This document shows, in pieces, positions 2,231 to 55,288 of a stretch of DNA of 64,000 nt. Under the pieces are notes generated by a model. The model searched no databases. It saw nothing but the letters and a program-made list of their open reading frames with translations, and had not been told where the DNA came from. A program made the position numbers and the translations under genes. This DNA is from Agarophyton chilense (taxonomy: Eukaryota > Rhodophyta > Florideophyceae > Gracilariales > Gracilariaceae): positions 1,364,001-1,428,000 of the forward strand of contig JARGXX010000117.1 of assembly GCA_030374765.1 (NCBI GenBank), given 5' to 3'. Each line of letters starts with the position of its first letter. Within the stretch, counting starts at the first letter, position 1.

Positions 2231-3958
2231 CTACGGAAAGCCCGAGGAGGGACCCGCCCCACCGTTGGGATTCTGACCCTGATGGTACGCCGAGGCGAAA
2301 GCCAACATCTGGCTCACATCCGTCATACCCGGGGGAATCGGAATGCCTGCGTTCACGAGGCCTTGTCGCACACTATCCGCTTGCGGAGTGGCAACCGGCG
2401 CCTGCGCAAGGGTGTTCACACCACACCCGGGGGGAGCAGATGCACCGTCACCGGATGCATTCGCCGCCGCAGCTGAGGTCGTTCCCACTGGTTGGAAGGG
2501 GGCAGATGGCTCCACAGGGAGTACTCCACTAGGAGCTGGCATTTCGTTATCCAAATCTGGATCGCCCAGGTCTATTGGAGGCTCGTACTCGTAATCCTCG
2601 GTATAAATGAACCCCGTCGGGTGTCCCACCGGCATCGGTCGAGGCGAGTCAATCAGCGCCCGTGCTTGCGCCGCGCTAATGCGAACCCTTTCGAAGGGAT
2701 TGTAATAGACCCAGTTACCGGAGCCCGGATCGAACCGGCCAGGAGACTTGTCTCGCGCGGATCCTTCCCCTGCGGGCTGATTTTCCACTGGAACTCGATC
2801 CCATTGGGTGTTGTCGATCACGTCCAAGATTGGATACAGGTCCTGCACGCTGCTGGCCGAACCCAACGCTGGGACAATGTCGATCTGACGCATGATGGTC
2901 CGTAGCATCGGAGGAATATACCAGATACGGAAACGGTCATGAGCATCCCAGAGGAGGTGCGCCGCTACGCGGGCTGCCCACTCGGCTGCAACGAGGGCCC
3001 AGTATCCCGAGTTCGGGTCGTGCATCAAACGAGACCCGATATAGTAGATGCATGGGGGCAGTTTAGCAAAGCACCCTCGGGGGGCCTCGACCTTACTCCA
3101 CCAAGCTGGAAGGGGCATGAATCGCCCAACCTTCGCCGTGTTACGGATACGCTCCAGTTCCACGTGAGGATACGGGACAAGGAACCCGAAACGGGAGCGC
3201 GAGCGGCGCTCGAAGCGCACGCGTCGATCGAACCCATACTGGGTAAACTGCCGTTGAAGGTACCTGAATTCAGCCCGAAGGATGGGACGACTCCATTGGA
3301 GCATATCTTCTCGGAGAGGAAAACCCGGTCCGCGGAACTCGGCTTCGGGAAAGGCTGCCAGGTTATCCCCGTAGGAGACCTCACCGTACGTGCGGTAATA
3401 GGCGACATCGAACCCGTACTCCGGGGGAACCAGATGGTCAAAGCGTGACCTCTCCAATCGCTGGTAGGCCAGAGCCGCCATCGCTGCTCTCGCCTTGTCC
3501 AGGGACTCCCCGCGACTGCGGTATAGATACTGAGGCTTTATGGCTACCCGCGCCCTCCAAACGGGAGAACGTACAACCTCGACAGGTAGGCCACCCGGCA
3601 ATAAGACGTCCTCCACGAAGGAGTCGATGAGCTCATCGTCGCGAACCGCTGTCGGATGAAACCACGGAGCGCGGGAATATATCACCGGATCGGTAAGGGG
3701 ACTCCACCTTCGAAAGGATTCGTTTGAGATCCAACCTCTGGAATTTGCTACCAAGGGCATCGCATGAGCAGAGTTCCACGCCACTGCGTTAATGTCCAAA
3801 TCCTCCTGAGGATGTCAGTTGCTCGCCGAAGCGGAAGGTTCGGTACCTGACGGAGCAGCATACAAACCGGAGAAATATCCACCCTGCTGGGGAGTTTCGT
3901 TGTCCGCCGGCGCGGAGGCCGACGGCCCCGAGAGTGGGTTGATGACGTATGGGTTCAT
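2231..3958 (-). pseudogene. Antisense ORF (aORF) of E1, near-intact
   Basis: A 575-codon frame antisense to gag-pol, broken only by one TGA at 3817-3815. I chose the ATG at 3958 because its start, MNPYVINPL, matches the MNPY start of the E2 copy. Shared blocks in order are RAPWFHP, LRAEFRYLQ, RSRSRFGFLVPY, SGYW, VIDNTQWDRVP, then a Pro/Ala/Gly-rich tail and a C-terminal motif around VRQGLVNAGIPIP. I recognise no known domain, catalytic motif, signal peptide or membrane segment. Homologues occur in E2, E3 and E4 at the same place and in the same antisense sense, which argues that it is a real coding module. The function is unknown. Confidence 0.75.
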
Positions 3959-4098
3959 TCCCTTGAGAGGGCTGGTTGAGACTGCTGTTGCGAGAAGTTG
4001 CTTATCGCCGAAAGTCGGAGGAGTAGAAGAAAGTTGTACCGATGTGCCGGTTTTTTGGCGATCCTCAGAAGTGGTGAAGGACCCCATTGGGAGAGAAG

Positions 4099-4106
4099 TA
4101 TATATA
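4099..4106 (-). promoter_or_regulatory. TATA-like box upstream of E1 aORF
   Basis: TATATATA lies about 140 bp upstream of the aORF ATG at 3958 and inside the polypurine tract/3' LTR boundary. It is symmetric, so it does not fix direction alone. Its position matches TATA-like boxes of the E2 and E3 copies, which suggests a promoter private to the antisense ORF. Confidence 0.5.
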
Positions 4107-4155
4107 GTGACCGGAAAGCGAGACACCCACGGCTCGGAATGCTCTTCCTCGTCTT

Positions 4156-4168
4156 AAGGAGGGGGAGA
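4156..4168 (+). promoter_or_regulatory. E1 polypurine tract
   Basis: AAGGAGGGGGAGA ends one base before the TG that starts the 3' LTR at 4169. This is the expected primer site for plus-strand cDNA synthesis. E4 has a near-identical tract (AAGGAGGGAGATA). Confidence 0.85.
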
Positions 4169-5086
4169 TGTAGAGCAACGCCCAGTCAGGGGATACTTGA
4201 AGATGCAACTCATAGAATGAGGATATAACCCTCCGCGGGTTATGACTATGATCCCCTCTAAGGTGTGCTGAGGTGGCACTGTTTTCTGGTTAGAGTTCGC
4301 CTATGAAGTGAAAATTCGGATGGCCCATGGTTGGATTGGCCCCGTGATACACGTGGCTTAATTTTAGCACCGATATTCGGATATTTGTTAGAACGTTGGA
4401 CTTTTGGGCCCTGACAGTAGGATCTCGACGTGTATGGCCCTGAGCAGGTGTGCACTACTGTAGAGTTTAGTTAGTGGGCCCTACTTAGGGAGATGAGATC
4501 TGACAGTCCGAAGCTCAAAGTAAAGGGTAACCAAGGTTGGTCTTCGATACCTTTAGAGGTTCTTCGTCGCCATCGTTTCGGCCTTACAACCCGGAACGGG
4601 CTCTGGTTAGCAACGCCTGCGTAGGGACACGACTCCACTTGGAGAGTGCCCACGTTTGGGTTCCGTGCAACCACCCCCTTGGGACCGCTCAGACGACCTG
4701 CGTGCACGATACCCCGTGGGGGTTCTGCTTACTCGTTGCGTGCTTTTTGTGTTTCCTTTCGAGGACAGGTTTTCGCCCCTGTATTGGGTTTCTTTTGTTG
4801 TTTCGCCCCTTTTTTGGTTCTCAGGTCCGGTGCCTGTTAGTGCCCGACCCTCGCCCCGTTTTTCCTCTTCGCCGGATTTTCCCCCATTCTTTGGGATACC
4901 CATACCCATTCCCGATCCAACGGTTTCTATCCCTCACCTCCGTCGGTACTGCCGGAATCCCCCGTGGGAGTTACACCCCACACTACGGGTGGAACGGAGG
5001 GCTCTGTCTCTGAGTCTGCCTCCCCCAGGGAGCAAGGCTTCGAACACCTTGAGAGCACTTCCCGTCGCCGGGTTTTGCTCCACACA
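4169..5086 (+). repeat. E1 3' LTR
   Basis: Starts TGTAGAGCAACG directly after the polypurine tract and ends near CACA at 5083-5086. The second half is strongly pyrimidine-rich, as in the E5 LTR. Length is about 918 bp, and the 5' copy lies outside the window, so the right end rests on the ending and on the E2 coding sequence that follows. Open frames in this stretch are not genes. Confidence 0.65.
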
Positions 5087-5590
5087 ACGTGAAGAAAAAA
5101 GGGTAACCGTAGACCCGACGACTATGCAGTCAGAAACCGATAACGATGATACAGTGGCAGAAAAAGGCCCTCAGCTGTCCGAACAGACTACGCAGGTTCA
5201 ACCTGAAGATATAGGGATTTCCAAGCGCTCTCTCGAGAGGTTCAAGGAAACGACAACGTTGTCATATCCAGTCAGGATTCAACGCGTTCGTTTGTCAGAC
5301 GGTATAAGCCGGTGAACCGCAACCTCACGCCATCCGCCGAAGCGTTGGGAAGTGCCCAGTAATAAGCCATGTATCGAATCATCGATCACGGCGAAGACGA
5401 AGACACTCACAGACTAGTGTATTGTATCGGTTGGTACGGTTTTTCTCCGGAAGCGGATACGTGGGAGCCTATAATTCATATCCTGCGCTCGCAGGTTGTG
5501 CGTTATCATCGTCACATTCGATTACCACTCCCTGCGGAGATCGACACCGCAATAATGGGCTTTCTAGACGCCATTTTGCGGAGCGACTGA
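5087..5590 (+). pseudogene. E2 pol tail with chromodomain
   Basis: 5087-5315 reads as a charged, Gln/Thr/Glu-rich linker in one frame. The chromodomain at 5369-5590 (YRIIDHGEDED, IGWYGFSPEADTWEPI, SQVVRYHRH) is in another frame, so there is a frameshift between them. This chromodomain keeps the conserved WYGF and TWEP positions. It is the C-terminal targeting domain of the integrase. Confidence 0.75.
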
Positions 5591-5599
5591 TAATCCCCT

Positions 5600-5700: not shown

Positions 5701-7415
5701 TTATGTTATCGCCTCAAGGGTGTTGACGACATCTGACGGTGAACGAACTTCCCCGCTGGTTTGATGATTCAGCATGGCTATAAGCTCAGCAAAATCGCCT
5801 TGCAGCTGTGCTTCGGGGAAACCCGCGTCTAAGAGGAATTGTCTCAACGGTGCCAAAAAGGGATTCTCCGCCTCGCTCGGTTATTGGGCGCACCTATGAT
5901 GGCATCCCATCGACGGGTTGACACCTAATGTCATAGCCGTTGGTGGCGAAGCAGCCGTCACAGGCGCACTACCGGATGGTTCAGGTTCATCCTCGAAATC
6001 GAGTTGGGCATCAGCAGCTGGAGATTCTCCATACTCCTGATCTGAAAACTCAAAAGGGGTGGACTCGTACACATATCTAGTACGCTGATTTGAGGAGGAC
6101 TCCCTAGAATTTTCACGAAGGTCACGAGCGTGATCAGTTGTGATTATCTGGCTGGTCCAGGGATTTTACCATACAAAACCTCAATCATTAGCTGTGCATC
6201 CTGGCGAATGATCTCGATGACGCACCCTTGTGCCTCTAGCTGATTCCAGTCGATACTGTCGTTCAAGTCTACCAAGAGTAGGAATTCGTCATAATTGGCA
6301 TGGGACCCCAACACAAGGGAAAGATCGAGTTGTCTCGCATATCTCCGCGCTGTTGGCGACATGTACCAAACCCGATAGGTATCGTATGCTCCCAGAGAAT
6401 ATAAGCTGCCATCTTGGCAATGAACTCGGAGAACACGACCGTCCAGTATCCCGAGAAAGAGTCGTTAATCAACGCGGAACCGATATAGGTTATGGCAGGA
6501 GGAAGCTCCACCGGACATCCACGAGGGCTCTCGATCTCCGCCTATTGTTCTGGCAGCTCGACATAGAGTCTGACGCGAGCATTCCGCCTAATTCGACCAA
6601 TCTCGATCATTTGGTATGGAACCAGGTACCCCCAGCGGGATCTCGTACGTCGTTCCCAACGAAGATAATCCCAATAAAAATGTCTCTCTTGTGAAGGAAG
6701 CGGAAGTCCGCACGGAGGAAGGGCCGGCGAAACCAGAGTGCTGCGTAGCGTACATCGCGTAAGCCGCGCCATTCGTCGACGTCGACTTCGTATAAGGTCT
6801 CGATGTATGAGTATCCTTCGCCCTTCGTGCGAGCCATACAGGGATCCAGATTCCAATCTGCAGTGACAACGACCATCCTAATGAAACGGTGCAGAAGCTG
6901 GTATATCAGTTTGGTGAGCCGAGTTTGGGCTTCGTCCATACTTTCATTGGTATTCCCGGCAATCGCTTTATCTGGCAAATCACAGTGAGTAAACCAATCG
7001 TGGCTGCGGATAGCCACATACGGAAGGCCATCTGGAAGGTAACCGCTGAAGACGTACTGGCTGACCAACGCGTCATCGCGAAGAGCGACTGGGTCAAACC
7101 AGGGAGCCTGCGCGAAGAGGTCAGCATCGTCGAAAGGGTCTCGTCCCACCAAGTCCGCGGGATGTGGATAGCTGCTTTGAGCCCTACGAGACAACGCTCG
7201 AATGATCCCAGCGGAGGATCCATAAGCCGCATTCGACATCACACCGGAAGCCGAAGGCTGTAACGGCAGGGAGTGGAAACCCACGCGAGGAGACGAGACC
7301 GCATTGATCAGAAGGCGAAAGGCGCCGGAGCTTGCGAATTGAAGCCACTTCTGGCGTAAGGACCCTCTGAGGGTACGTCACCGTTGTTGGAGTTGTGCGG
7401 CGCGTATGGGTTCAT
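5701..7415 (-). pseudogene. Antisense ORF (aORF) of E2, decayed
   Basis: Starts at ATG 7415 (MNPYAPHNS, matching the E1 start) and ends at TAA 5703-5701. The frame is broken by a TGA at 7310-7308 and several frameshifts. Conserved blocks can still be followed: FAQAPWFDPVALRDDALV, LRADFRFLHK, a TRSRWGYLVPYQMIE block, SGYWTVV, DSIDWNQL and the C-terminal LRQFLLDAGFPEAQLQGD. Blocks of the E3 copy match best, for example VELPPxITYxGSxLxND. No known domain is seen. Position and orientation relative to pol are the same as in E1, E3 and E4. Confidence 0.75.
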
Positions 7416-10305: not shown

Positions 10306-11085
10306 TGTAGCATTATGGATGCACCTGAGTTCGACCGATCGAAATACTACGATGTCGCGATGCGGCATTCATAAGCTATTTCTTGGGCTCTACTCGATTA
10401 TGAGAACTTTTGAGAATAATTACTTCATGGAAAGGTTTGGACAGGAAAAACTTAATTAGGAAGTACTTTATTTATTGTACACTGTAAGGTGCCATCACCA
10501 AAAATTTTATTTGGTGTTATTAAGATACTTGTGTAGTGACACGACACGTGTTTGAATTACTGTACAGTACTTGGTTGGCCTCTTGGCACATTAAAGGGTG
10601 CAAGGCACAGTTGAGGACGTCGAAAGGCCAACCAAAAACCAACCAACCTAAACAACATCTTGGTACGTCCTGGAAATCCTAAAATGGTTCACCACAAAGA
10701 GGCACCTATTGTTTCAGTTCTTAACCGTTCTGATATATAGCTCTTGTTACGAGGATACTATCTACTGTTGCGCGTGTACCGCTCTTTTTCTACAGCTTTC
10801 TGTGTGTGTGTGTTGCTTCGTTGTTTTTATCTCTACTATTACTTGGTTATTTGTATTATCAAAAGGTTTGTCGAACCGATTTCGTTTGCATTACGTACCG
10901 CTGTATCTGGACATCCGTCCGTGAATACACGTATTATGTCTATTGTTCAAGAACAATTGGCTGCTTTGCGCACACTCTCTTCTTATCTAAGAACAGTCGC
11001 TCGCAAGGTGACACCCGCTCTTTGCGGTCATTTATGTGGATAAACACTGAACTGAAACCTCTACAGTCTTCAGTGGAATACAACA
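10306..11085 (+). repeat. Solo LTR of the E3 family
   Basis: A 780-bp TGTAGCATT...ACAACA unit that matches the E3 LTRs along its length in reverse complement, but is clearly more diverged from them than they are from each other. It includes the same (TG)n run at about 10800. Flanking 5-bp sequences are CAAGG (10301-10305) and CAAGA (11086-11090), a 4/5 match that fits a target duplication. No internal element sequence adjoins it, so it probably arose by LTR-LTR recombination. Confidence 0.8.
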
Positions 11086-12505
11086 CAAGATGTGTTTTTG
11101 TTGGGGATTGGGAAGTTTGCGCCAAAACTCTACTTGACTGTTTAATCACGATAGCCATGCTAGTGTCTCTATTCATTTCATTAGATACGATTCAACCTCT
11201 ATTGGGGGGTGCGATAGAGGAAATATGACCTCTAAAGAAAAACGAAATGAAAAGGATATATTTCATTTCCAGCGGTAGAGTTGCATTTTAGCCCCGCGGC
11301 ATGAAAGTCCAGGATGGATCTACTGCGGTAGAGATGCTCTAAGATTCACAAAGGTCTAGAAAGGTATTTCTCTATATGCTTTTGTTGAGCGATTTGATTC
11401 CTAGAATCTATGAAATTTACAAATAATCTCGCAAGTGATTCAGGCGGCGCACAAAAGTGGCCAACCAAAGACCAAAATATAAAGAGTAATGCATCCATTC
11501 GCAACGCTCTTAGTTTTTTACTCTTGGATTATGTTTCGTACTGATCCATGATCAGACGCATTCCAAATATGAGCTGTTTAGAAAAATATTTAACAACCAA
11601 GTTCTTTTCCGTGTGCGTAAGCATATGATTTTCGGTTTTCTATTGAATAGTTTACTGTGCTTGGGCGGTTTTGTATAATACGGCACTGTGATAAAAATCT
11701 TTTTTTATTTTGGTTCTAATACCTTCACTTCAAATTCTTCATGACGAAACAGATCTTGACATCGATAACCTACAATGTAAAAGTTGTACTTATTAGAATG
11801 GTATTCCCTTTTCCAATTGTTTTTTTTGCTCGGGCATATGACTTGCACAAATGTAGTTTTGTTTGTCACCCAAGAGTCTAATGAACAGCAGCAGTAATTT
11901 TTGATCAGAGAATGTAGAATTGGTCACCTTTTTTGGCAGTGATAGTGTTATTTGCGAACCATGCAGAGCGTTGAAGGTTCCAGGAAGCATCATGAGGAAA
12001 AAATGAGCCCAATCGGGCGGGAAAATATCGAATACGTTTTTCCTTATCGTAGGAAAAGTACATGGGCTATCCCTTGATGTATTAAGATCAAATCAATCAA
12101 AATTTTGCTACGACTGGCGTACCTATTGGATCAATTCTAAGTTGAATTTAGCAACAGCTAATGCCATTGCTTTTCTTATGTTCACGATAATATACATAAT
12201 TGGAAACAACAATTGGAAATCTGACAACCAACTGTTGCCCATAGTGAAAATACTATGCCCGATTACAGAAACAGTTTATATCTAGTGTCTATTGGACCAA
12301 TGGCCTCATATGCGGTCACTTGGTTTCATATGAGGCCAACTTTTATTTCTTTGTACTTCCGCAATAAAAATGATCTAAAAACTCTGTTCAACGGTAACAT
12401 ATTATTGAATCATATGGTTTTGTTAACATCTACCTTCGAAGTATGTAACACTCGATGATTAAACCGGATATTATTTTTTGACTTGTTTTTCTAGGATGGT
12501 GTTCT
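11086..12505. other. Gene-free AT-rich stretch
   Basis: I see no convincing gene. The stretch holds a palindromic 40-bp unit at 12301-12340 (GGCCTCATATG...CATATGAGGCC), which recurs in the same direction at 17447-17486 on the far side of the copia element. Confidence 0.6.
12301..12340. repeat. GGCCTCATATG palindrome, left copy
   Basis: TGGCCTCATATG and CATATGAGGCCA arms with a short loop form a hairpin. A diverged copy in the same orientation is at 17447-17486. The pair brackets the copia element at unequal distances. Confidence 0.6.
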
Positions 12506-12762
12506 TGTCGTAGATGCAGAAGTTGTTTCGTCGAAGCTACCGACGTTTTACTGTTGCGGTGTTGCGCTGCTATGGTCTTAAGTACTACTCGTTCTAGCTA
12601 CTTGGCCTCCAGCCTTCTAGTCACCCAAAATCTAAAATGTAGTGCTGCACCGTACCAGTGCTCGTAATTGAGCGCAGTGTAGAAGCCAAACGTCCGTATC
12701 GGACAATAGTGGCCAAACGTCCATCTTGGACCGTCGGGGCCAAACGTCCAGATCGGACAACA
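12506..12762 (-). repeat. Copia 3' LTR
   Basis: On the plus strand it runs TGTCGTAGATGCAG...GGACAACA. It matches the 16952-17209 copy with scattered differences. The polypurine tract adjoins it at 12763. Confidence 0.85.
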
Positions 12763-12775
12763 CTCCCCTGCTTCC
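12763..12775 (-). promoter_or_regulatory. Copia polypurine tract
   Basis: GGAAGCAGGGGAG on the minus strand stands directly before the TGTTG start of the 3' LTR. Confidence 0.8.
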
Positions 12776-12901
12776 TACAACGAGCTGAATTGTGCAAGAC
12801 ATTCTAAGTACTTTCTCAACCATCTATCATTCTCATTTGCAGGTCCTTGCCAACATGCTTGTGCAACCATCTCTTCAAAGGCATTGCGAAAACATCGGCT
12901 T

Positions 12902-15900
12902 TCATTTCACTTGTCGCAATGTACTCAATGTGAACTTCTCCTTTTCGTGTTGTGTCACGAACCACAAGTGGTACTTCACATCTATGTGTTTCGTGCGTTC
13001 ATTACACACCTCATCTCGGGAGAGACAGATCATTCCTTGATTGTCCCCGTACAACGTAGTTGGTCCATTCAGTGGCACTTGGAATTCCTTTAACAGTCTT
13101 CGCAGCAATACCGCTTCTCGTACGGCAAACGACATTGCCACGTACTCTGCCTCCAACGTTGACTGGGCGACAACAGACAGTTTCTTGCTTCTCCAAGCAA
13201 TCGGTCCACCCGCATACATGAGAACAAAACCACTTGTAGACTTCCTGTCTACTATATCACCAGCAAAATCAGCGTCCGAGTAGCCAATCAACGTGCCATG
13301 GGTCTCAGAACCATAAGTGATGCATTGCCTGCGAGTTGTATGTAAGTATTTCAAGACATTAAGGGCTGCTTTCCACAAGGTTTTGTTGTACTTGCTCATG
13401 TATCTTGCGAGAAATCCAACTGAGAAGGCAATGTCTGGCCTCACTGTATTTGCCAGATGCATCAGAGCCCCTACCAATTCTTGACAGGGCATATATTCCT
13501 CCCCTTCTGATGCCTCTGCCTCCTGTAGGGTCGCTGTGTCCGGCAATGGAACGTGAACAGGCTTGCAGTTGACAATTCGGAACCTCTCAGAAAGATTATC
13601 GATCATCGGAGAGTTGTGAATCCGTACTGTACCTTCTTCCTTCCAGTGATCAACCACAATTCCAAAGAACTTCTTCGGCGTTTCTTCCGTTCGCAGCTCT
13701 ACCTTGGTTCTCAGCTCCGCCAGAAACCCAACCAGCCGCCCATAATTGCTTCCTGCCACCAATCCGTCGTCCACATACATCAGTATCCAGATCCTTTGGT
13801 GTCCATTTCCATGGATGAATAGTCCTGGGTCAGCCTCCGACACCTTGCACCCCATGCCGAGTAGAATAGCCGCGTACTTCTTCCGCCACGCCCTTGATGC
13901 CTGCCGAAGACCGTACACCGCTTTGTATAGCTGATATACGTAGTCCTCTTTGCCTTCCTGGACAAACCCTTGCGGCTGTGACATGTACAGCGTCTCTTCC
14001 AGATCACCATACAAAAACGCAGTACAAACATCGAACTGTATCTTTTACAGTCTCAGTGAAGAGATGATTGCAAGCAAGGCACGCAAAGTGGCATATCAAA
14101 CCACTGGGGCAAACAGTTCGGTGTAGTCAATTCCTTCTCGTTGATTGAAGCCTCTTGCCACCAGCCGGGGCCGGTACCGCGCTACACGGCCCTGTTCATC
14201 TCGTTTCTTGTAGTACACCCAGCGATTGTCCAATGGCCTACACTCCGCAGGAGGCCTAACAAACTTCCACACACCCCTGCGTTCCATGTTACTCATCTCA
14301 TCCTGCATTGCAGCCACCCAGAGCTCTTTTTCAGAGCCATTCATAGCTTCTAGAAAGGTATCTGGTGCCTCTATATCGTCTGCACCAAGAATAGATCGTG
14401 CCAGGAGTGCAGTGGCTGCATCTGGCGTAAAGCGTGACGTTTGCTTGCGAGCACGCGTTGACTTTCTCGGCTCAGGTGGGTAGTGTGTCACCAGCTCAGG
14501 ATCGTAGCTATACTCTGACACAGCATCTTCAAACGTCTCTTCAGGTTCCGATTTGATGACTACAGAAGCGTTGGTGGTCTGGTGATTCTTCTCGACCTTG
14601 CTCTCAACCTTGCCCAAACTATGCGAAACATTGCGCACTTCATGCAATATATGTGTGTCATCACTCTCCCCTGTCGCCTTGTCCCATCCTACCAGATCTT
14701 CATTGAACCGTACATCCTTGGAGACGGTGGACTTGCGCGTCTCCGGATAGAAGACTTTGTAACATTTTCCTTTAGCGTAGCCCACGAGGATGCCCTTCAC
14801 AGCTCTTTCTTCATACTTGCTCGCGTGCTTCCTCGTCTCCTTAGGAATATGAACAAAACCCTGTGCGCCAAACGTGCGAAGATGCGCAATGTTGGGTTTG
14901 CGACCCGTGAATGCTTCGTAGGGCATATCGTTCTGTCCATCACTAGTGCTGGTTGACGTGCGATTGCGGAGATAGTTGGCAGTGTTCACCGCATCTTCTC
15001 ACAGTTGCTTCTTATACGGTGGGCCCTTCATTTCAGAAAGCATGGTTCGAGATTTGCCATTCAGAGTGCGGTTCAGACGCTCTGCCTTCCCGTTTGACTC
15101 CGGACTGTAGGCCGCAGTCGTCTCAATCTTGACACCCTTGCCTTTCAACCAAGCCGTGAAGGATTGAGACACATACTATCCTGCGTTATCAAACCAAAAC
15201 CGTTTCAACTGATGTTCAGATTGTGTCTCCAGCTCTTGAACCATTTCCTTGACTGCCGCCTCAACGTCCGAACGACGCTTGACAAATCGCACGAGAGAAA
15301 GCTCGCTTTTATCCTCGTAGATCGTGACGCAGTAGACCGCACCAGACAGAGACGGGTGCGGCATAGGTCCCATCACGTCTGAGTGGAGTAGTTCCATGAC
15401 CTTCTTGGCCTGATTCTCCGCGTCTAGTGCTTTCCGGGACACAAGTGCGGATTTTCCAACTGCACATGGCTCACAGAAGCCTATGTCAGACACTATAGAC
15501 ATTCCAACATCTTCTACAACCTTCAGAGTCTTTCGCATCGCATCAGCAACAGGATGCCCAAGTCGCTTGTGCCACAGTATTGTAGAGTCCTTGCTTGCCG
15601 TTGAAAGAAATACCGACTCTTTGGACACAGAACGGAACACCATCTGGTAGAGGTCTGTCTTGATTTCTATACCAGAGGCCATGATATCGTCCGTTCGTTG
15701 ATTGATTACCAGACACAGTCCGCTCCCCAGCTGATCAGACTTGAAAACGATAGAGCAGCCCTTACGGCGAATGACACTCACCGATAAAAGGTTGCACATT
15801 AGGTCCGGTACGTACTGAACATCTTCTAGCAATATCTATTTCTCATTCCCGAAACAAACGCCTCTGCAATGCACATCACCTTCACCTCGAATGATGACGG

Positions 15901-16885: not shown

Positions 16886-16937
16886 CTTGTTCAGCGATCA
16901 AAAAGATAGCTGAGAAGCACAGATTTGCGTTACGATA

Positions 16938-16951
16938 GGCCCATAACCTCT
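16938..16951 (-). promoter_or_regulatory. Copia primer binding site (initiator tRNA-Met, internal)
   Basis: The minus strand after the 5' LTR reads AGAGGTTATGGGCC. GGTTATGGGCC is complementary to the anticodon arm of eukaryotic initiator tRNA-Met (GGCCCATAACC). Drosophila copia is known to prime from a cleaved half of this tRNA, so the same mode is inferred here. Confidence 0.75.
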
Positions 16952-26189: not shown

Positions 26190-26352
26190 GTATCCCAAAG
26201 TTTGAGATTTATTCCAATGGCGGCCCCACGATGCTGAACGATAAAGGAACTCTCAATACGGATGAAGCTTGCACATCCCCTCTTCGAATTCTTGATGAGA
26301 TCTGCATAAAACGCTACGTGTTAATGTCCAGTCTCGCCCATTCCGATTTCAA

Positions 26353-27126
26353 TGTGGTATTCCACTGACGACAGTATAGGTCTCGGTGCAGTGGGTATCC
26401 ACAGAAATAACAGCGAAAAGCGGGTGTCGCCTTGCGAGCGACGGTTCTTAGATAAGAATAGAGTGTGTGGAAAGCAGCCAGGTGTGCCTGAACAATGGGG
26501 AAAATAGGTGGATTCACGAGGCGGATGTCCAAATGCGGCGGTACGTAATGCACACGAGACCGGCTCGACAACCCTTGTGACAACATAAATAACCAGGTAA
26601 CAGTAGAGAAAACAACACACACACACACAGAAAGCCGTAGAAAAAGGGCAGTAAACGTGCAACAGTGGAGGGTACCCTCGGAACAAGAGCTATAGCTCAG
26701 AACGGTTAAGAACTGATATTATAGGTGCTCCTTTGTGATAAACCACTTTAGGATTTCTAGGACTCACCAAGATGGTGTTCAAGTTCGTTGGTGGTTCTTG
26801 GTTGGCCTTCGCCGTCCTCACCTGGGCCTTGCGCCCTTTAATGTGCCAAGAGGCAAAGAAAGTACTGCACAGTAAGGCATACACGTGGTGTGCCACTACA
26901 TAATTATCTAAATAATACCAAATAAAATATTTGGTGATGACACCTTACAGTGTACACTAAATACAGTACTTCCTTATTAAATTTCTCCTGTCCCAATCTT
27001 TCCATGAAGTGATTCTTCTCATAACTTCTTGTAATCGAGTATAGCCCAAGCAATAGCTTATGAATACCGTATCGCGACTTCGTAGTATTTCGATCGTTCG
27101 AACTCAGGTGCATTCAGAATGCTACA
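26353..27126 (-). repeat. E3 3' LTR
   Basis: On the plus strand it runs TGTGGTATTCCACT...GAATGCTACA, 774 bp. An (AC)n run is at about 26612. It pairs with 44650-45423. Confidence 0.93.
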
Positions 27127-27167: not shown

Positions 27168-27173
27168 TATAAA
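27168..27173 (+). promoter_or_regulatory. TATA box upstream of E3 aORF
   Basis: TATAAA in the correct orientation, 131 bp upstream of the aORF ATG at 27304, and inside the 3' LTR. It is the clearest of the three TATA-like boxes found before aORF copies. Confidence 0.55.
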
Positions 27174-27303: not shown

Positions 27304-29827
27304 ATGAGCAACCTTCCGTCTTACATGGTCAATCCACCTCCGTCCTATGACGATCTTGAAAACTCTCCGTTTAAGCAGACTTCTGCGCCGCCTAGTGGTT
27401 CCGCTTCACTCTCCCGAACTGTCCCTTTGCTGCAATCGGCTTCCAGACCTGGTCCTGCATACCTTTCCTCCACAGCAGCTGTTCTTCAACCTGCGTCCTC
27501 CTCCGTACAAAGGTTCCCACATTACGCGGACTTCGTCGGCCGAGACCCCCTGCAGCACTCTGCCTTATGCGCGCGAGCACCTTGGTTTTTGAAGAGCAAC
27601 GTCCTCCAGGGAGGTTTTTGGGGACTTAAGTTTTTTCCGGAGCCTCCGGCGTGCAACCTCGTTATGAGTAGGAGTAATCCGTTTTCACGGCGATGGCCGG
27701 AACGCCGGTGATGCACCGGCGGGACCGGGTGCCATACACGTGGCCGCAGCACCCGCGCGACACGTGGCCGCCAGATTGGCCCCCTTTATTAGACGGACAT
27801 TTAGCTATTTAGGATAGACTTTATTTATTCTGTTCTACGGTGACTACAGTACTTAGGCCGCCGGCCTCGTGGCCGCTGGTCCAGTAAAGTCTCCCCAACA
27901 AGGGTGATCTTGGTCTTCCAGATCTTGGCTCTGGGTCGAACCGCCTGCACGGATATACAACTCCTTACGGAGGGATTTCCCGTGGTGCACGGCTTCCCAA
28001 CCCCCCTTGGACGTTCAAGCAGCCTTCGTGTGTTGGGTATCTATTCCCACTTTCGTGGTTCCGCCCGTGTATACGGTTTGCTACACCCGGCAGTGCCGGC
28101 TATTCCCGAGTCCCCTCTTGCGACTCGTGGTCAACCTCGCCCTCTTGCCTCCGTTCCCATTTTCCTTCCCTTTTCCTCCCCTTCATTGGGCGATTCCCGC
28201 TCTTGCGGCTCGCACTGACACCTGTCGTCCTCGCCACTCTCGTGGGTTTTGCCTCCTCAGAGGATACGAAAGCACCGCTTCGGCGGATATTCTCGGCTTC
28301 TTTCAGCCTCCCTGCGCCCGTGGCGACGGTTCGGCTCCGGCTTACACCCGGCATTGCGCGCCGATCCCTGGGAGGGCTCTACCGCGCCGGTTACCTCGTG
28401 AGAGGAAGATCCGGACGTCTTCGTAGGTTTTCCCCCTTGGGGGCGTTGTCCTACAGTTTTTACCTGTGGAGGTCCACGAAGAAGCTCTGATGAATCAGTA
28501 TGTGGTCGCCGGTTGCGTTCCCGATGTTATCAAATGGAATGTTTTGCTTACAACAGATTGGTTAAGCCATTGCGCCGTCCCAAACCATGCGATCAGTCGC
28601 TTCGGAAACGAAAGCTTGCCCGAAGCTCGGGAACGATTCCCTCGTCTGGTATACCAGCGTTTACGCCGCATTATCAGCTCGGTGCCTCTCAATGAGGATT
28701 GGCAATTCGATATCTGCTGTGCCAGAACAAATGGCGAGGTCTACTCGTATGGCGAGAACCTAGCGGCTTTGGATGTCCAAAGGTGGCGCGGTGTTCGTGA
28801 AGTATCCAACGGGGCCCTCTGTTCTGACAGTCCTCAATTACGCGCGTAATTCCGCTATCTCCGCAAACGGGATAGTCCGTATTGGGAATTCCCCCGGTGG
28901 GAACGTCGTACCAGATCTCGACTGGGATACTTGGTTCCATACCAGATGCTCGAAGTGGAACTAATTCGGTATAACTCGCACGTCGGGCTCTACGTGCCGA
29001 TTCCTCAATACTGGTATGAGATCGAGAGTCCTCGTGGCTGTCCTGTGGAGCTTCCTCCTTCAATCACCTACGGAGGTTCCTCACTCGCGAATGATCTGTT
29101 TTCCGGTTATTGGGTAGTCGTCTACAGTGAATTCATCGCGAAAATAGCCGTGTTCATCCTTTGGGATTTATACGAAACATATCGTTTGTGGTATATGAGC
29201 CCGATTGCTCGACAACTTGCGAGAGAACTCGATCTGTCACTCTTCCTGGGTTCACGTGCCAATCACGAAAAATTTCTGCGTCTGATGAATGTCATTGACC
29301 AGATTGACTGGACCCTTGTTCCTTCTGAACAGCAGACTAGAGGACGTCCTCGTCGCGACCATTCACTCGGAAGAACCGGTCCCAGCGATGACTTTGTCTG
29401 GTACGACCCCTGGACTAACCAGCATATCGACGGCGATCACGCCAAAGCTCTGCGGGAAACTCCGCGAGCAATGTCTCCAACCCAGACAACTGGTTGCATA
29501 CACGAGCCAACTGCTCAGAATGCCGACGCACTCGTTGACGAGATGCAGGAAATCTATTACGACAAAGAGCCAGAAGAGGTCATCCTCGAGGATCCCGCTT
29601 TGGGTGAGAACGACGGCATAGAGCCAGTGGTCTCTGCAGCGATGCAGAGCGCTGTACCCGAGCCTGTTCGATCCGCAGTGGCTTCCCACAATGCCGAGCT
29701 TGGCCATCTGAGGCAGCTTCTCGAAGACGCTGGGATTCCTCGGCACCATGTTCAAGGAAATCGACAGCAGATGCTGAATCTCTGGCGCTCCTCGATGGGT
29801 ATCAACTGGGATAACCCGAATCCCTAA
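27304..29827 (+). pseudogene. Antisense ORF (aORF) of E3, interrupted by a solo LTR
   Basis: Antisense to E3 gag-pol. It starts at ATG 27304 (MSNLPSYMVNPPPSYDDL) and ends at TAA 29825-29827. If the solo LTR and one copy of its GTTTT duplication are left out of the count, a 550-residue frame is seen with only one further stop, TAA at 28847-28849, in a block that reads LRAEFRYL in E1. Conserved blocks are APWF (split by the LTR), FRYLRKR, TRSRLGYLVPYQMLE, SGYWVVV, NVIDQIDW, FVWYDPW and the C-terminal LRQLLEDAGIPRHHVQ. An acidic stretch precedes the C-terminal motif. No known domain. Function unknown. Confidence 0.8.
27590..28455 (+). repeat. Solo LTR of the E5 family inside the E3 aORF
   Basis: An 866-bp unit, TGAAGAGCAACG...GTCCTACA, which matches the E5 5' LTR (55515-56378) along its length with only scattered differences. 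It is flanked by a perfect 5-bp duplication, GTTTT, at 27585-27589 and 28456-28460. It lands within the conserved APWF codons of the aORF. No internal sequence remains, so it is the product of LTR-LTR recombination. It dates E5-family activity after E3 insertion. Confidence 0.95.
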
Positions 29828-29979: not shown

Positions 29980-32900
29980 TCACTTCATTCTTCCTCCTTC
30001 TGGAGTTGTTTCATACTTCTGTAGAGGTCGGATTCGATCAGGCTCTCCTGACACAACCAAACCGACGAGAGTGTCATCAATAGTGTCTGGAACATCCAGT
30101 TTAGCACGTTGGCAGTACGCGAGCACTTGTGATCGTGGTAGATTGCATATAGGCTCCCATGTATCGTCTTCGGGTTGATACTCATATCAACGCACTTTAA
30201 AAAGTAAATTGTTGTCCTTTGCATGCCATCCATGATCTAGAATGCGTTCGATGATGTATTCCATCACCTCAGTTGCGGAATCCTCAGTCGGGGTGGCACT
30301 CCTGTCAACAGGTTCCGTAGCGTTCGCTATGGCGTTCGGAATCGTGTCATCACGTTCTCTCCTCTCATCAACATCCGGGGTTCTCAAAGCCAGTCGTCTG
30401 GTTTCCCTATATTATTCCGGTCTGGCCGGTGCTTCCAACTTCCTTCTCGGTTTTTCCGAACCTCGCGGCGAAAACGCGACTTCAGTTGCCACTGTACGCC
30501 ATAGGCTTGCCCCGTTGGGCTTCTTCTCTTCCGTATTTAAGGTGTCCGGATGTTCTGGGGGTCGCCCCAAATGCTCGGTATCCATCGCAAATGGGTCAGC
30601 CGGTACAGTCATACTGTCTCCATGTGGCGTCTCCACAATTGCGGTGTCCCTTCTGGAATTCTTCTTTTCTTGAGACCTTCTGCACTCCTCAGGGAGAGTT
30701 ACGCTCTTCAATCCGTTTGGCGAAATTAGCTTGCTGATCTTAGCTTCGGTTCCTTCTGATTCTACGCCAAATGGCGATTCTTTTCTTTCATCAGGACTCC
30801 CTGTAGAGCCTTCACGACTTCTGATACGTGAGGTATAATCCTCAATTTCTTTTGCGTCCACCGCGTGGTCTGAGGGAGAGACTGCAGTTTGCTGCGCGCT
30901 CACAGTGCGGATCGCCGTGTCTCCTCTCACTGCTACAGTGGGAGCTATGATTATGTCATGGGCGGATGCGCCTTATTCGCAGAACTGTTGTTCAGCGCTG
31001 TAAGTCGGATCTCCGAATTCTTTTCACCAAGTGGCAGTTTTGGAATTATATTGCCCTGCGACGATATTTCCGCAAGCTCCTGTACAACTAGTGGCTGTGT
31101 TGGTTCCTGCACCTCAATATCTCCACGTGTGGACTCCTCTCACTGTACTTCAGCTTCTCGATCTGGCGCAACAACTACTCGGTCGCGAGAAATGCGCTCT
31201 ATCTCAGTTCCTCTCCGTATTACCACGGTATATTCGTCGAATTAGACAACTTTATGCGGTCCTGTAGCGATCGGCGCTAACTTCTGACGGAGTTTCCGTT
31301 CCTTTTCCTTTCCAGTCTTCCGGCTATCATTCCTTTCCAATCTCACGAAAACGTGTCCTCCGACTCGGATATCCGGGAGTGCCCGTCGCATTGACGCGTT
31401 GTAATTACGCTTGTAGCGCGCTTGGGCCTTTCCCGTCTCTTTTGCAGCCTTTGTAGTGCGTTCGCGCAACTCATTTCTCCAGCGTAGGTGAAACTGAGCC
31501 GGCTCCGGCATTGACTCTTCTTTGGTTCTGTCCGAATCAACCTTGATTGGCAAAGCCGCTGATCGGCGAGATATAACCAATTCAAAGGATGTTAGCTTCG
31601 TCGTCAAATGCACTTGAGTATTGTACGCGTAGCAAAGCGTGTCTGTATTCAGATCCTAGTCCTTCGGATGTTGTCCGATGTGGTGCCGAATTCCGGCGAG
31701 TAGTGTACGGTTGTACCGTTCCACCTGCCCGTTACATTGCGGATGATACGTCGTGCGGAACACGGTCTTAACTCCAAGGATCCTTCATACATCTTGAAAG
31801 AAGCGGACAACGAATTGCTTGCCATTATCTAAGAGCAGAGTATCCGGTGGTCAGTAGTAATAAACCCAATGGTGGATAAACGCTCGTGCTATCACGGAAG
31901 CAGTAATCCGTTTCAGCGGAACAGTCTTAACCCGCTTAGAGAAGCGGTCAGTAATTACCAAAAGGTATCTGTTTCCCTTCTTCGAGCGGATCAATTCCCA
32001 AACTATGTCAATACTGACATACTGTAGAGGTGCGATTGTTGGGAACAGCTTCAGTGGCTTCTTCTTTTTCCAGAGCTTCACTCTATTCCTCGCGCACGTT
32101 ACACACATCTTAGCTGTCGCGTGACAATCCATTGCCAAAGTTGGCCAATAAAAATACCTTCTGATGGTTAGATACAGCTTCGTACCTCCTGGATGACCAG
32201 ACATTTGCGAATAATGTGCCAAATGCAGTACTCTGCTCTTAAGAGCGTGTGATATCACGATTTGCTCATTCGATTCAACAGTTCGAACAAAGATTCCTCG
32301 ATCGTCGAGACGAAAAGGCAACACCTCCCCCCCGTTAAGACGAGAGCGGATAGCCGCGCAGAAGGCATCTGTGACTTGTTCACGTAATAGATCTTCAAGA
32401 GAGATTCGGTCGAGTTGATCTTCTGGATCACTGTCCGTAGTCTGGGCTACCAGTAATTCCATTTGATAATCCTCTTCTTCTAGATCTTCTAGTTCTTCTT
32501 CTTTCGTTCTCGAATTCTCCTTTACCAAACATGGTATCTCATCATCGATTTCCAAGTGGGTTTCTCCCAAGGTTTCGAGTCGCGATAAAGCGTCGGCGTG
32601 TACGTTTGAAGTTCCCTTCTTGTAGTTGATTGTGAAATCAATTCCTGAAAGGCGCAGACGCCATCGCATTAAGCGTCCCGACGGGTCGGTAATCGACATG
32701 AGCCATCTGAGGCATGAATGATCGGTATTGACCATAAAGTGAGCACCCTCTAGGTCAGGTCTGAGGGTCGTGAGAGCCCAAACCATAGCAAGGCATTCCA
32801 TTTCTGACACAGAGTAGATCTTTTCTGCCTGGTGCAGTGTTCTAGATCAGTATCCAATAGGATGTCGTATGCCGTCTTCGTGCGTTTGAAAAAGGGCACA

Positions 32901-36420: not shown

Positions 36421-36616
36421 TTCAGTGGTCAAAAAAGGACGAATTGAAATGACCGAAAAACCCGTGAATTTATCCAAATTTGGAGGTGTTAATTTCCGAA
36501 AAAATTTTCATTCGTTCATTAGTGCTAGTTTGTATGGGAAGGAAAACTAGCACATATCTGCAGTTTTTCTAGTTTTGATGAAGGTAAAACTAGCGTGAAT
36601 CTTTCTGTCGCCGCAG

Positions 36617-42481: not shown

Positions 42482-43154
42482 GGCCGACAAAGGTGCGCTC
42501 CGACTTCATCGGGGGTCCCGATGAAGTCCCCGCGCACCTCTGTTGGCCGACAGAGTGCACCGTGTACACCTCGGCGTTCCAAAATTATATGTATTATGTG
42601 GACCGACAGAGGTGTGCTGCGACTTCATCGGGGACCGCGATGAAGTCCCCGCGCACCTCTGTCGGCCGACAGAATGCACCGTGTACACCTGGGCGTCATA
42701 AAAATTACAAAATTATATGTATTTTGTCGGCCGACAGAGGTGTGCGGGGACTTCATCGCGGTCCCCGATGAAGTCGCAGCACACCCCTGTCGGTCCACAT
42801 AATACATATAATTTTGGAACGCCGAGGTGTACACGGTGCACTCTGTCGGCCAACAGAGGTGCGCTCTGACTTCATCGGGGGTCCCGATGAAGTCCCCCCG
42901 CACGTCTGTCGGCCGACAAAATACATATAATTTTGTAATTTTTATGACGCCCAGGTGTACACGGTGTATTCTGTCGGCCGACAGAGGTGCGCGGGGACTT
43001 CATCGAGATTCCCGATGAAGTCGGAGCGCACCTCTGTCGGCCGACAGTCGACCAACATCTCAGAAACGCATCATTCGTGATGTTACGGCGTATTTGTCGG
43101 CCGACAGAGGTTCCCTGCGACTTCATCGGTCCACCGATGAAGTCGGAGCACAAG
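42482..43154. repeat. Array of six nested palindromes (GTCGGCCGACAGAGGTGCGC)
   Basis: Six hairpins of about 70 bp lie at 42482-42551, 42601-42670, 42726-42796, 42845-42917, 42973-43045 and 43096-43154. Each has outer arms GTCGGCCGACAGAGGTGCGC / GCGCACCTCTGTCGGCCGAC and inner arms GACTTCATCG / CGATGAAGTC around a 5-7-base loop. The spacers alternate: spacer 3 is the reverse complement of spacer 1, and spacer 4 that of spacer 2, so units 1-2 and 3-4 also form a larger inverted repeat. The sixth unit lacks its right outer arm. A lone spacer copy is at 39947-39998. Confidence 0.9.
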
Positions 43155-44644: not shown

Positions 44645-44649
44645 ATTTA

Positions 44650-45423
44650 TGTGGTATTCCACTAAAGACTGTAGAGGTCTCGGTGCAGTGGGTATCCACA
44701 GAAATAACAGCGAAGGGCGGGTGTTGCCTTGCGAGCGATGGTTCTTAGATAAGAATAGAGTGTGTGGAAAGCAGCCAGGTGTGCCTGAACAATGGGGAAA
44801 ATAGGTGGATTCACGAGGCGGATGTCCAAATGCGGCGGTACGTAATGCACACGAGACCGGCTCGACAACCCTTGTGACAACATAAATAACCAGGTAACAG
44901 TAGAGAAAACAACACACACACACACAGAAAGCCGTAGAAAAAGGGCAGTAAACGCGCAACAGTGGAGGGTATCCTCGGAACAAGAGCTATAGCTCAGAAC
45001 GGTTAAGAACTGATATTATAGGTGCCCCTTTGTGGTAAACCACTTTAGGATTTCTAAGACTCACCAAGATGGTGTTCTGGTTCGTTGGTGGTTCTTGGTT
45101 GGCCTTCGCCGTCCTCACCTGGGCCTTGCGCCCTTTAATGTGCCAAGGGGCAAAGAAAGTACTGCACAGTAAGGCACACACGTGGCGTGCCACTACATAA
45201 TTATCTAAATAATACCGAATAAAATATTTGGTGATGGCACCTTACCGTGTACACTAAATACAGTACTTCCTTATTAAATTTCTCCTGTCCCAATCTTTCC
45301 ATGAAGTAATTCTTCTCATAACTTCTCGTAGTCGAGTATAGCCCAAGCAATAGCTTATGAATGCCGTATCGCGACTTCGTAGTAGTTCGATCGGTCGAAC
45401 TCAGGTGCATCCGGAATGCTATA
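44650..45423 (-). repeat. E3 5' LTR
   Basis: 774 bp, the same length as 26353-27126. The terminal CA has become TA at 45422-45423. Most differences between the two LTRs are transitions. Confidence 0.93.
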
Positions 45424-51300: not shown

Positions 51301-52537
51301 GTCGTCCCATGGAAAACGGGTTGTTTTTGTTATAACCGATAGGTTTACCAAACGTACCCGAGCCATACCCCTAGGGAAGACAACGGCCACGGATGTCGCC
51401 ACGGCCTTCTTGTCCCACTGGTTATATCCATATGGCATGCCACTCTACCTCCTTACGGATAATCGCAGCCAGCTTGTATCCAAATTCTTCTCACATGTTT
51501 GTGTTACCATACGAATCAAACATGTGACCACTACGGCGTACCAACCGCAGTCAAATGGCCAAGCCGAACGCTTCAACTGCACCCTTCTGAATTGATTGGC
51601 ACACTACGTATCGGAGCACCAATTGGACTGGGGCGACTATGTTGAGCCACTGTTTTATGCCTACAACACGCAGGTGCACGCTTCCACGGGGACAACACCG
51701 TTCGACTTAACGCTAACGAGAGCGCCGCCACCGATAGCTGTTGACTTTCAGGAGTCTATCATATCCCAGGACATAACCGAAGGAATGACTCTTACCCAGG
51801 CGAAGCACTACTCGCGCCGACGCATAGACCGCATTATCCAATCGGCTGAAACTGTACTATCCAAATCCCAACGGCGCTACAAGATTAATTTCGACAAAGC
51901 CGTTTGAAACACACCAACCTTTGGGAAAGGAGACCTGGTCTACCTAGACCCGCCACCGAAGGATAGTGAGGAACTCGAGGACACTCCACGGAAGCTCTTA
52001 CCCCGCTGTACGAAACCATGCAAAGTCCTAAAGGCCAATTACCACACTATCACGTTGCTAATCGACGGCCTACAGGACACCGTGTCTATTGACCGCGTGA
52101 CAGGAGCTCCCTGTTCCTCCGGACCACCAAAGTCCCAGCCCCCTAACCCAACGGAAGCACAACCACCTCAGGTCGACGCTCAAGTCTCCACACCCCCTAA
52201 AGCAGCTCCCGCGGACTCCACTAGCCCCACGGACCCGATGGTCAACCTCAACTACTATGACCCATCTCTCCCAACCGACTCCGATTGATTCGCCCCTCTG
52301 GACCACAATCTCCTTCGGGAGAATGAACACCAACCGGAATATGTGATTGAGCGCATCATCTCTGCCGGTCGGGGAGAAGATGGAACTATGCGCTTTCGCG
52401 TCCTTTGGTTTGGCTACACACCTGAGGACGACACTTGGCAAGAGCCTCAAACCATTCTTGCTAATTTTATCGCCCGGTTTGGCGCAGAATCAGCCACACG
52501 GAGCGTGGCATTCAAGAGGGGGCAACCATTGGTCTAA
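48354..52537 (+). pseudogene. E4 pol: protease, RT, RNase H, integrase, chromodomain
   Basis: Protease (LDTGAGPNF, about 48537) is in frame 3. RT (FDYRKLNAVTKRDAYLIPR, YLDDVIIF at about 49840) is in frame 1. RNase H (DTDVSDFEVGCAL), integrase (HFPRLAGHPG...CASC, MDILGPLP, NGQAERFNCTLL) and chromodomain (YVIERIISAGRGED, VLWFGYTPEDDTWQEP, 52340-52490) are in frame 2. There are therefore frameshifts near 49080 and 50150, plus stops including TAG 50804, TGA 51593, TGA 51905 and TGA 52286. The chromodomain has an extra residue within the TWEP motif (TWQEP). It is inactive. Confidence 0.9.
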
Positions 52538-52895
52538 ATAATCCTAAAACGCCTCCAAAACCACCTCCCTACACGACTGTTCTCTGAAGCAAGACGGTTC
52601 GTCGTAGCTCCGGTATTAGGGAACAAGGTCAGTCGTTCGGAGACACCTGAGAGAGACCCGATACGGTCTTAAGATTGGAAGCTGTCCCGGAGCACGCACT
52701 TTGAGACACAAGAACGACCTTGGGAGAGGGCAAGCATTAATTTATTTGACAACTAACAGAGGTAGAAAAGCCCTCACCATGACCTCAAGGTTCGCGGAAG
52801 GGCTCGGAACACCAACAAGACTCACTGGGTGGCGCAGGAGTAACTCCGTCGTTCTCAGTGGAACCTGCAGCAGCAAAACCGGGACCAAGGTCACC
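52538..52895. other. Gap between E4 pol and aORF
   Basis: 358 bp without a gene. It is only weakly purine-rich, unlike the matching gap in E1, E2 and E3. Confidence 0.6.
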
Positions 52896-55288
52896 CTAAG
52901 AGCTAACTGGACCACTAGAATTGGCCCCATCGAGCCGAGCACGCTTCTTCGGCGGAGAGTCACCTGAGGAACTATTGTCAGCATTGGAAGCCTCCCGGTC
53001 ACTCAAATTTAGACCATACCGGGCATCCGAGTCGGCAGTAACCCTTTGGGACATCACCTGCGCATTCTGATGCAGGATATTGACCATGGCGGTCTTCAGA
53101 TCCTGACCCTGTGGGATAACCGCGGCGTAGCTAGCCGAGAGACGCGCCCAGGAGCAGGCTTCCCTCAGAACTGTCGCGATCTCCACCGAGGCCGTAATAC
53201 CAATGGTACGGCAGACATGACGGAGATCCGCGGCTGCAGCCGTGACCGAAGCGGGGAAGTTTGGCAATGGAGAGGACTGAGCGATGTCGACGCCCCCAGT
53301 GGACGTTTGAGAAAGTGCATCTCCCACAGGACTATCAGCTTCGACAGTAACCTCGCTAGGAGGAATGTTCACTTGGGCGACGGGCGGTTCATACGAGAGC
53401 TCATCCTGAGGAGCAGCGCCCAGAGGGGCTGGAGGAGGGGATGCGGTCGGCAACACCACAGCGGACTCGACCGGACGATGACCGCCCTCCACGGGTAGGA
53501 CGAAGGGAGATTCACCGAAGGATTCTGAGTCGGACATACCGGCAGGTACCAACGGCGTATCTTCCACATCAGGCTCGAAGCAAAGAGGATCGAAACCAAT
53601 GACTTTCGGATGATTGTCGGGAACATGATGCCTCGGAATGTCCGATGGTTGATTTCTCAAAGGCTTGGCGGGCTAGGCACAAGCGTCGTCCTGACCCTAA
53701 GGATGCAGCGGACTCGGCGTGAATGATTCGGTATCCCAGTCATACAAAAGGAACCCGGGAGTCTTGCCCAACTCCACCTGCAGGACATGATCGAAAAGGG
53801 CCTCGGTCTCCTCGACGTCGAACTGAGTCTCACAGACGACATTCTGGATGCCCAGGTTCCTTAGGAAGCGAATCATGATGTCCAGGAGCGGGATTAGGCG
53901 ACCTCGAGGACCGGGTATGTTCCCATCGTACCACACCGTCCAATCTTCCGAACGGACATTACCGCGGATTCCGTATTTCACGGTATCCAGGAATGCCATG
54001 AGGGACATCACGCCGAACTCAACGAAGAGTATCTTCCAGGACAGCCACGAACTTCAGTCATTGTCATCGCTCATGAGTCGAGACGAGTGGTACGCTACTA
54101 CAGACGTCGTTGGAACCAAAAGGAGCGGCGAGACACGGCAGTAGTTGGCCCATTGGTTCTCATCTTCGTCGGAAAGCGAAAGACATAACGGAAGACGTTT
54201 GTCTGCGGTCATGTCCTGGACTCCACCTGGTGCCAACAAAAGAAGAACCCCAGGGATTGACGCAAACGAACATCGGGCTCGTGCATCTCATTCCAATAGA
54301 CCCGGTTGGACATCCAGAACAGGCGGTCATACGACAGCCGGAAGCACATAAGCGCGAAGAGGTTGTGACGAGCCGGAGGAAATCGCATATGAGGCGAGAT
54401 GAAGTCCGTATATAGGTCGGAAAGGAGTTTGTTCACCCTGAACTGGTAGCCGGCTTCCTCCTTGCAGCGGACGTATGGCATGTCCGCTTGGACAAGGGTG
54501 CGACATCGCGTCGCCGAACACGGATCCGGAGGACAATGCAACCATCGGTTGTATTACGAGACGCTGCGCGCGTTCTTGCTGCCCCTCCGGAAATAGGGCA
54601 TCTTGGCAAACATTCGGGAGTCGAAATACATATGGCAGAACCTTTGGTATTCTTCCACAGAGCAAGGAAGAATGGCATGACGCACTTCCAGCGGGTTTAG
54701 TCCGATGGTATCGTCATAACGGTCCCCAGGACGTTCGTATGCCACTTGGTATCCCGAGGAGCTCCCTGCTTGGGTTTTCGAAGCCATGGTGCCGCTGCCC
54801 ACAGGCTGGTCCGCCGGGAATTAAATAGGATGACCAACGGTAGCGGCAAAGTCCGGAGGGAGAACTGCATATCCAACGGGCTTGTAAGGCGAGTTCGGCA
54901 TCGCGCACGACCAATGGAAAAGTACCACGATGGGAAGACGAGGTGACAGAGTCGACCCGGACGGACTGACGGGCGTGAACCACGGTGGACGAAGCGCGGA
55001 GGGTAGCAAATGGAGGAACGGAGACTCAGGAAGGCCCCAGTGACCATCAAAGGAGAAGAAGCCAATGGATCATCTCGGCAACGCGACGCGAGGAATGCCG
55101 CGGCGATGCACCTATGGCCAGCGCTCACGGCGCGTTGGAGTTTCAGTCCCTAGGCAAATTAATTGCCCTTCGACGCCAATGGTTAGCTCACGCTTCCCCG
55201 CATCCCCACAGGCGACAAAGACGCGACGTCCCGTCGCGCCCAATGGTACCGGGAGCAACGAAGTGCTCGCGTCCCCTAGGTCAAGCAT
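52896..55288 (-). pseudogene. Antisense ORF (aORF) of E4, decayed and divergent
   Basis: Minus-strand coding remnants run from ATG 55288 (MLDLGDAST) to TAG 52898-52896, with stops and frame changes. Recognisable blocks are RPPWFTPVSPSGS (the APWF block), IGLNPLEVRHAIL with MPYFRRG, LSYDRLFW, LLDIMIRFLRNLGIQ, FLLYDWDTESF (compare FVWYDPWTNQH in E3) and, near the end, a DLRHVCRTIGI segment in place of LRQxLxxAGIP. The C-terminal 254-residue piece (53660-52896) is intact and acidic/Ser-rich. It is the most diverged of the four copies, and some matches are short, so homology rests partly on position. Confidence 0.6.

Follow-up and report, generated by a model that had tools for sequence, protein, structure and literature searches.

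A new protein superfamily encoded by an antisense accessory gene in chromodomain-bearing Ty3-type elements of a red alga

Antisense accessory genes located between pol and the 3' long terminal repeat (LTR) have been described mainly from flowering-plant elements, with a function that is given as unresolved (PMC7264820, PMC11963269). In Retand, a non-chromovirus lineage of eudicots and Liliopsida, TRP28 is encoded by 97% of clusters, and this domain has been reported from flowering plants only (PMC11963269); the antisense product of Grande is described as nuclear and its gene as having an upstream promoter (PMC7264820, PMC11963269). A sequence-only reading of the DNA analysed here had pointed to such antisense open reading frames (ORFs) in plant Tat elements. 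This stands for Retand and Grande, but the arrangement is not confined to Tat, as Boty of Botrytis cinerea is also cited as having an antisense additional gene, brtn, in the same position (PMC7264820; Zhao et al. 2011, as listed among the references of PMC8365987). In retroviruses, HBZ of HTLV-1 and further antisense products are nuclear accessory proteins encoded at the 3' end of the element (PMC11963269), and the HTLV antisense promoter lies inside the 3' LTR (PMC7264820). Here we describe an antisense ORF (aORF) from a window of 64,000 nucleotides (nt) of the red alga Agarophyton chilense, the whole stretch that was analysed (assembly GCA_030374765.1, contig JARGXX010000117.1, positions 1,364,001 to 1,428,000 of the forward strand). 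The aORF is a genuine protein-coding gene of Ty3-type elements. It is located between chromodomain and 3' LTR on the strand opposite gag-pol, and several diverged element families carry it.

The antisense gene in four elements and in the genome

As the sequence-only reading had proposed, all four of the elements E1, E2, E3 and E4 bear an aORF antisense to gag-pol in the interval between chromodomain and 3' LTR. Their features, in coordinates of the window, are:

1468..1776, plus strand: E1 chromodomain frame (PF00385), about 600 nt past the pol stop near 987
2231..3958, minus strand: E1 aORF; start MNPY, in-frame stop at 3815-3817, open part 2231-3814 (527 codons)
4100..4106, minus strand: E1 TATA-like box, 148 nt upstream of the aORF start codon, putative antisense core promoter
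4158..4168, plus strand: E1 polypurine tract
4169..5084, plus strand: E1 3' LTR
5366..5587, plus strand: E2 chromodomain (PF00385)
5701 (about)..7415, minus strand: E2 aORF; MNPY start as in E1, broken in several places, intact pieces including 6607-7377
26352..27126, element sense minus: E3 3' LTR; its probable pair, 44649-45421, is 96.2% identical over 773 positions
27168..27173, plus strand: E3 TATAAA box, 136 nt upstream of the aORF start codon
27304..27588, plus strand: N-terminal part of the E3 aORF, before the inserted LTR
27589..28455: LTR inserted in the E3 aORF, 867 bp, 95.8% identical to the LTR at 55514-56378
28456..29827, plus strand: remainder of the E3 aORF; a single stop shortly ahead of 28850, core open over 28850-29827
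29983..30411, minus strand: E3 chromodomain region, interrupted by a stop; only half of PF00385 matched, weakly (E 0.073)
52289..52534, plus strand: E4 chromodomain (PF00385)
52896..54898, minus strand: E4 aORF; broken by several stops and frame breaks, open C-terminal piece 52896-53672 with PPKKRARL
55337..55514: probable E4 LTR remnant, past the aORF leader and ending where the LTR of the next element (55514-56378) starts

The single stop that had been counted in each of the E1 and E3 aORFs was found at the positions listed, whereas the E4 aORF had been started too far upstream, at 55288; the start common to E4 and its relatives is near 54898. The motifs said to be shared by all four copies are present in E1 to E3, with small variants in E2 and without the P of APWFxP in E3 near the inserted LTR, and are absent from E4 in the form quoted.

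The assignment to Ty3/gypsy is read from the order of the pol domains and the LTRs; a place among its chromoviruses is putative. The PF00385 match is above the Pfam cut-off in E1, E2 and E4, and in E3 it is weak and covers the C-terminal half only. The pol order is RVT_1, RT_RNaseH and rve in E4, and RVT_1 followed by RNaseH and integrase in E3; in E1 and E2 the reverse transcriptase (RT) was not seen and lies outside the window or is missing. The chromodomain of E4 continues in the same frame as the pol pieces, across single stops. That of E1 is in a frame separate from pol (window 987-1591), a separation also printed in six of nine E1-type copies (L009, L010, L011, L014, L016 and L017); this could reflect splicing, a frame change or a small protein of its own. 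In E1 about 450 nt separate the chromodomain stop from the aORF stop, so that the aORF is convergent on pol; within this interval, at about 1990-2170, is a repetitive tract that is purine-rich on the sense strand and varies among the E1-type copies printed. The probable LTR remnant of E4 is only 66.8% identical to an LTR-like stretch near 45513.

A search of the 79.8-Mb genome, in which all counts are lower bounds drawn from the best-scoring loci, gave at least 352 scored aORF loci (82 E1-type, E1 itself included, 123 from the E3 query and 147 E4-type), which may include assembly duplicates (L040 and L041, for example, look alike). The E3 query gave at least 123 scored candidates (125 matches), mainly in two groups, near 80% and near 53% identity. 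A complete frame of 575 codons is present in 19 of the 30 best-scoring E1-type copies, E1 being among the 30, and 45 of the 82 listed E1-type matches have, by hand count, no stop across the 527-codon part.

The position of the gene is nearly constant across the copies compared. Among E1-type copies it is antisense to and downstream of pol in 40 of the 41 for which a pol end was listed within 8 kb, and in 46 of the 47 for which an RT was listed within 9 kb; the same holds for 44 of the 47 E4-type copies with a listed integrase piece within 8 kb. These pairing counts omit the aORFs for which no pol match was listed within 8 kb (41 of 82 E1-type and 100 of 147 E4-type). The exceptions (1 of 41 and 3 of 47) are on the same strand at odd distances and are probably neighbouring elements. 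Directly upstream of the aORF, within the stretch searched, 29 of the 30 fetched E1-type copies have the junction of LTR and polypurine tract, and in 28 of 29 copies compared with the copy L017 the outer LTR edge is aligned, the printed flanking bases differing by eye. Similarly, of 30 E3-type loci, 26 have LTR sequence upstream, 29 have chromodomain-side sequence downstream and none is inverted; E3 itself is among the four without the LTR, because the inserted LTR pushes its 3' LTR outside the stretch.

Selection, homology and window context

Purifying selection acts on the amino-acid sequence that the aORF encodes. Among 30 E1-type copies, 60 polymorphisms are common to at least two copies, of which 33 are synonymous and 27 non-synonymous, giving a dN/dS (omega) of 0.37 after correction for the mutation spectrum (binomial p 0.0001). 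Singletons, which we take to be mostly post-insertion changes, number 338 (116 synonymous, 212 non-synonymous and 10 stop changes), and the two classes differ (Fisher p 0.006). In these comparisons the expected counts were built from one real copy, L017, rather than from a consensus. Between the families E3a and E3b, dN is 0.44 and dS 3.1, which is saturated, giving an omega of 0.14; the differences at codon positions 1, 2 and 3 number 193, 159 and 324 (p 8e-16). Omega is 0.34-0.57 between E4 copies and 0.60 between L017 and E1. The ratio is therefore not near 1 for all pairs.

The likeness of the protein sequences also exceeds chance. E1-type proteins are 30-52% identical to E2-type, E3-type and database proteins, and the E1-, E2- and E3-type proteins mutually align, the window copies of E2 and E3 only as pieces. 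A profile comparison of E4 with E1/E3 gave 65% directly and 97.0% (E 9.8e-11, 199 columns) when bridging relatives were included. One such bridging protein, P0021, matches the E4 profile at E 1.9e-46, the E3b-like protein P0003 at E 2e-10 in BLASTP, and the E1/E3 profile at 96.5%. E4 is thus, by profile comparison, a distant relative of E1 to E3, and the direct alignments, the P0021 bridge and the profile match together place all four types in one superfamily, in agreement with the earlier proposal that the copies are related.

Database relatives match at E 2.3e-157 and E 1.6e-108. The latter is the Gracilariopsis chorda protein BWQ96_10156 (565 aa, with 41% identity across 83% of the query), a homologue named only as hypothetical; a relative among ENA proteins is 49% identical. 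Database fragments from Agarophyton chilense are 86-96% identical, with one more at 37%, and in a search with the E4 type 11 of 13 matches were from Agarophyton chilense.

The window contains further mobile elements. A fifth Ty3-type element occupies 56859-63439, with gag from 56859 and a pol frame with a long low-complexity tail, and its 3' end is outside the window; a minus-strand frame of 266 codons lies opposite its pol frame, and no aORF belonging to it beyond the window was among the matches listed in the genome searches of best-scoring loci. A Plavaka-type transposase frame (36599-38377, PF18759) falls within the probable extent of E3, in the part from gag to the right-hand LTR (44649-45421), and an LTR-like copy at 10306-11088, about 84% identical to the E3 LTR and in the opposite orientation, is apparently a solo LTR. 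A minus-strand element at 12503-17210, flanked by repeats of about 262 bp with 93.9% identity, is apparently of the Ty1/copia type, judging from its motifs. An array of repeats of about 120 nt, direct and inverted and 60-92% alike, lies at 42482-43152, and a transaldolase frame (19541-20674, PF00923) is apparently a host gene.

Leader, product and competing explanations

TATAWA boxes are found upstream of the start codon in the window copies of E1 (-148), E2 (-78) and E3 (-136), and appear in only 7-12 of 500 dinucleotide shuffles of each of these leaders. At -146 to -148, 27 of 30 E1-type copies have TATATAT or TATACAT, the second form, which is outside the TATAWA consensus, accounting for 12 of the 27. 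The leaders of E2, E3b and E4 were taken as a fixed 170-200 nt and not measured to the LTR. These motifs suggest that part of the superfamily has an antisense promoter of its own.

Full-length aORF proteins have no significant Pfam family by hmmscan, and neither hmmscan against PHROGs nor PDB sequence searches gave anything significant, in line with the earlier statement that no match to the protein is known. Weak matches were set aside, namely LRV (E 0.0094, short of its cut-off) and Ish1 (E 0.11), which fall on the last 60 residues of E3 and of L070 respectively, and SH3-A_UBE2O (E 0.15) on P0003. A pair of C-terminal helices with a pLDDT of about 75 in the first of two AlphaFold models was likewise left aside. 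The ends of the proteins are of low complexity, rich in P, S, G, A, T, Q and N. The E1-type protein of L017 has an arginine-rich central segment that is strongly basic (residues 241-288, +7), and E4-type proteins end in PPKKRARL or a variant, which we take to be a classical nuclear localisation signal. By analogy with the antisense genes of Grande and Retand, an accessory, probably nuclear, regulatory protein is the most likely product.

The explanation that we favour overall, with modest confidence, is a coding antisense gene with its own promoter whose product is a nuclear accessory regulator of the element. The aORF would be transcribed antisense from a promoter in the short leader that separates the polypurine tract from the start codon, and the protein would act in the nucleus on the transcription, silencing or integration of the element; the transcript, being convergent on pol, could also oppose the full-length sense RNA. 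Several results weigh against this explanation. The singletons give an omega of 0.77, mildly below 1 (p 0.02 against neutral), and among the five other frames in which shared changes were scored, the opposite-strand frame that shares wobble positions reaches 0.48. Two within-family pairs are near neutral (E3a 0.83, E3b 0.92), as is expected of decaying copies. TATAWA is absent from the E3b leader, from the two E4 leaders tested and from the leader of L042 of E3a. Both AlphaFold models are of low confidence (mean pLDDT 44.4 and 36.2) and show no fold. In L017 only arginine-rich matches near residues 245-255 were found and no clear classical nuclear signal, and in six E4-type or related proteins the peak 19-residue hydropathy, at 0.95-1.82, is borderline.

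A rival explanation is a structural or infectious protein, such as a second Gag-like, an envelope-like or a movement protein, made from an antisense message. A large conserved extra gene before the 3' LTR occupies the site of env-like genes, its product has low-complexity termini, and in the E4 type a hydrophobic segment reaches 1.82; however, four E1/E3-type proteins peak only at 0.91-1.33 and have no membrane-like segment, the Pfam scans gave no significant gag, env or movement match, and env-like genes are described in sense orientation (PMC7264820). We consider such a role improbable. An unlikely origin too, though we would place it before a structural role, is capture of a host gene, or of a gene of another mobile element or virus, kept for a borrowed function that is not specific to the element. 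The lack of any recognised fold or family would fit this. Against it, families with no more than 30-36% identity to the E1 type carry the gene, so that any capture is old, and when viral contigs were scanned once with P0001, a search limited to close relatives, one pattern match came up and none was confirmed. The genome lists hold the best-scoring loci, and a single host copy could be missed.

It is also conceivable that the antisense RNA is the functional product, base-pairing with the sense RNA, and that the open frame is secondary. The convergent layout and the leader TATA boxes in E1 to E3 are in keeping with this, and regulation by antisense transcripts is discussed for plant elements (PMC7264820). 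Selection at the level of the codon, both in the shared polymorphisms and in the excess of third-position differences between E3a and E3b, largely refutes RNA as the sole function, and the database proteins at 41 and 49% identity would be left unexplained; we therefore regard it as a distinctly improbable reading. Least credible is that the frame is a shadow of a sense gene or open by chance. One sense frame of 253 codons is open opposite the aORF in the E3b family, but the three sense frames have 8, 21 and 13 stops over E1, which refutes a shadow there, and 7, 12 and 8 over the E3 core. When shared changes were scored in the five other frames, omega was 0.48-2.01; scored alike, the aORF frame gave 0.34. 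On these two comparisons we reject this explanation.

Extending the nuclear regulator that we favour, we tentatively speculate, in a form that may well prove wrong, that red algal chromodomain elements independently evolved or anciently acquired an antisense nuclear protein with its own promoter that acts in trans with the integrase chromodomain, for example by countering host chromatin silencing or by steering integration. If so, antisense accessory genes would be a recurrent convergent solution in plants, fungi, retroviruses and red algae, reached here with a new superfamily.

Comparison with known antisense accessory genes

The aORF is a genuine accessory gene in antisense orientation; it is conserved, its proteins form a new superfamily, and the arrangement as such is already known. 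In the open-access literature searched, titles and abstracts gave no red algal or chromovirus case, which is weak evidence of absence. Among described systems, HBZ of HTLV-1 is like the aORF by description, and differs in that the HTLV antisense promoter is inside the 3' LTR while the TATA boxes of E1 to E3 lie outside it. The likeness to brtn of Boty, again by description, is that of an antisense gene in the same position in a fungal element. The arrangement in Retand and Grande (TRP28, PF04195; gene23 of Grande), an antisense gene between pol and 3' LTR, is the one seen in the red alga, but the red algal proteins show no TRP28, PF04195 giving no match at E up to 1 in six proteins or up to 10 in five, and Retand is a non-chromovirus lineage. 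The red algal aORF thus resembles the Retand and Grande genes in its arrangement without belonging to the TRP28 family.

The arrangement is now found in chromodomain-bearing elements of a red alga, at the scored loci counted above and with a protein family unmatched in the libraries searched. Its recurrence with a different protein would argue that position and strand themselves serve the life cycle of the element, a question that the many near-identical copies with open frames make experimentally testable.

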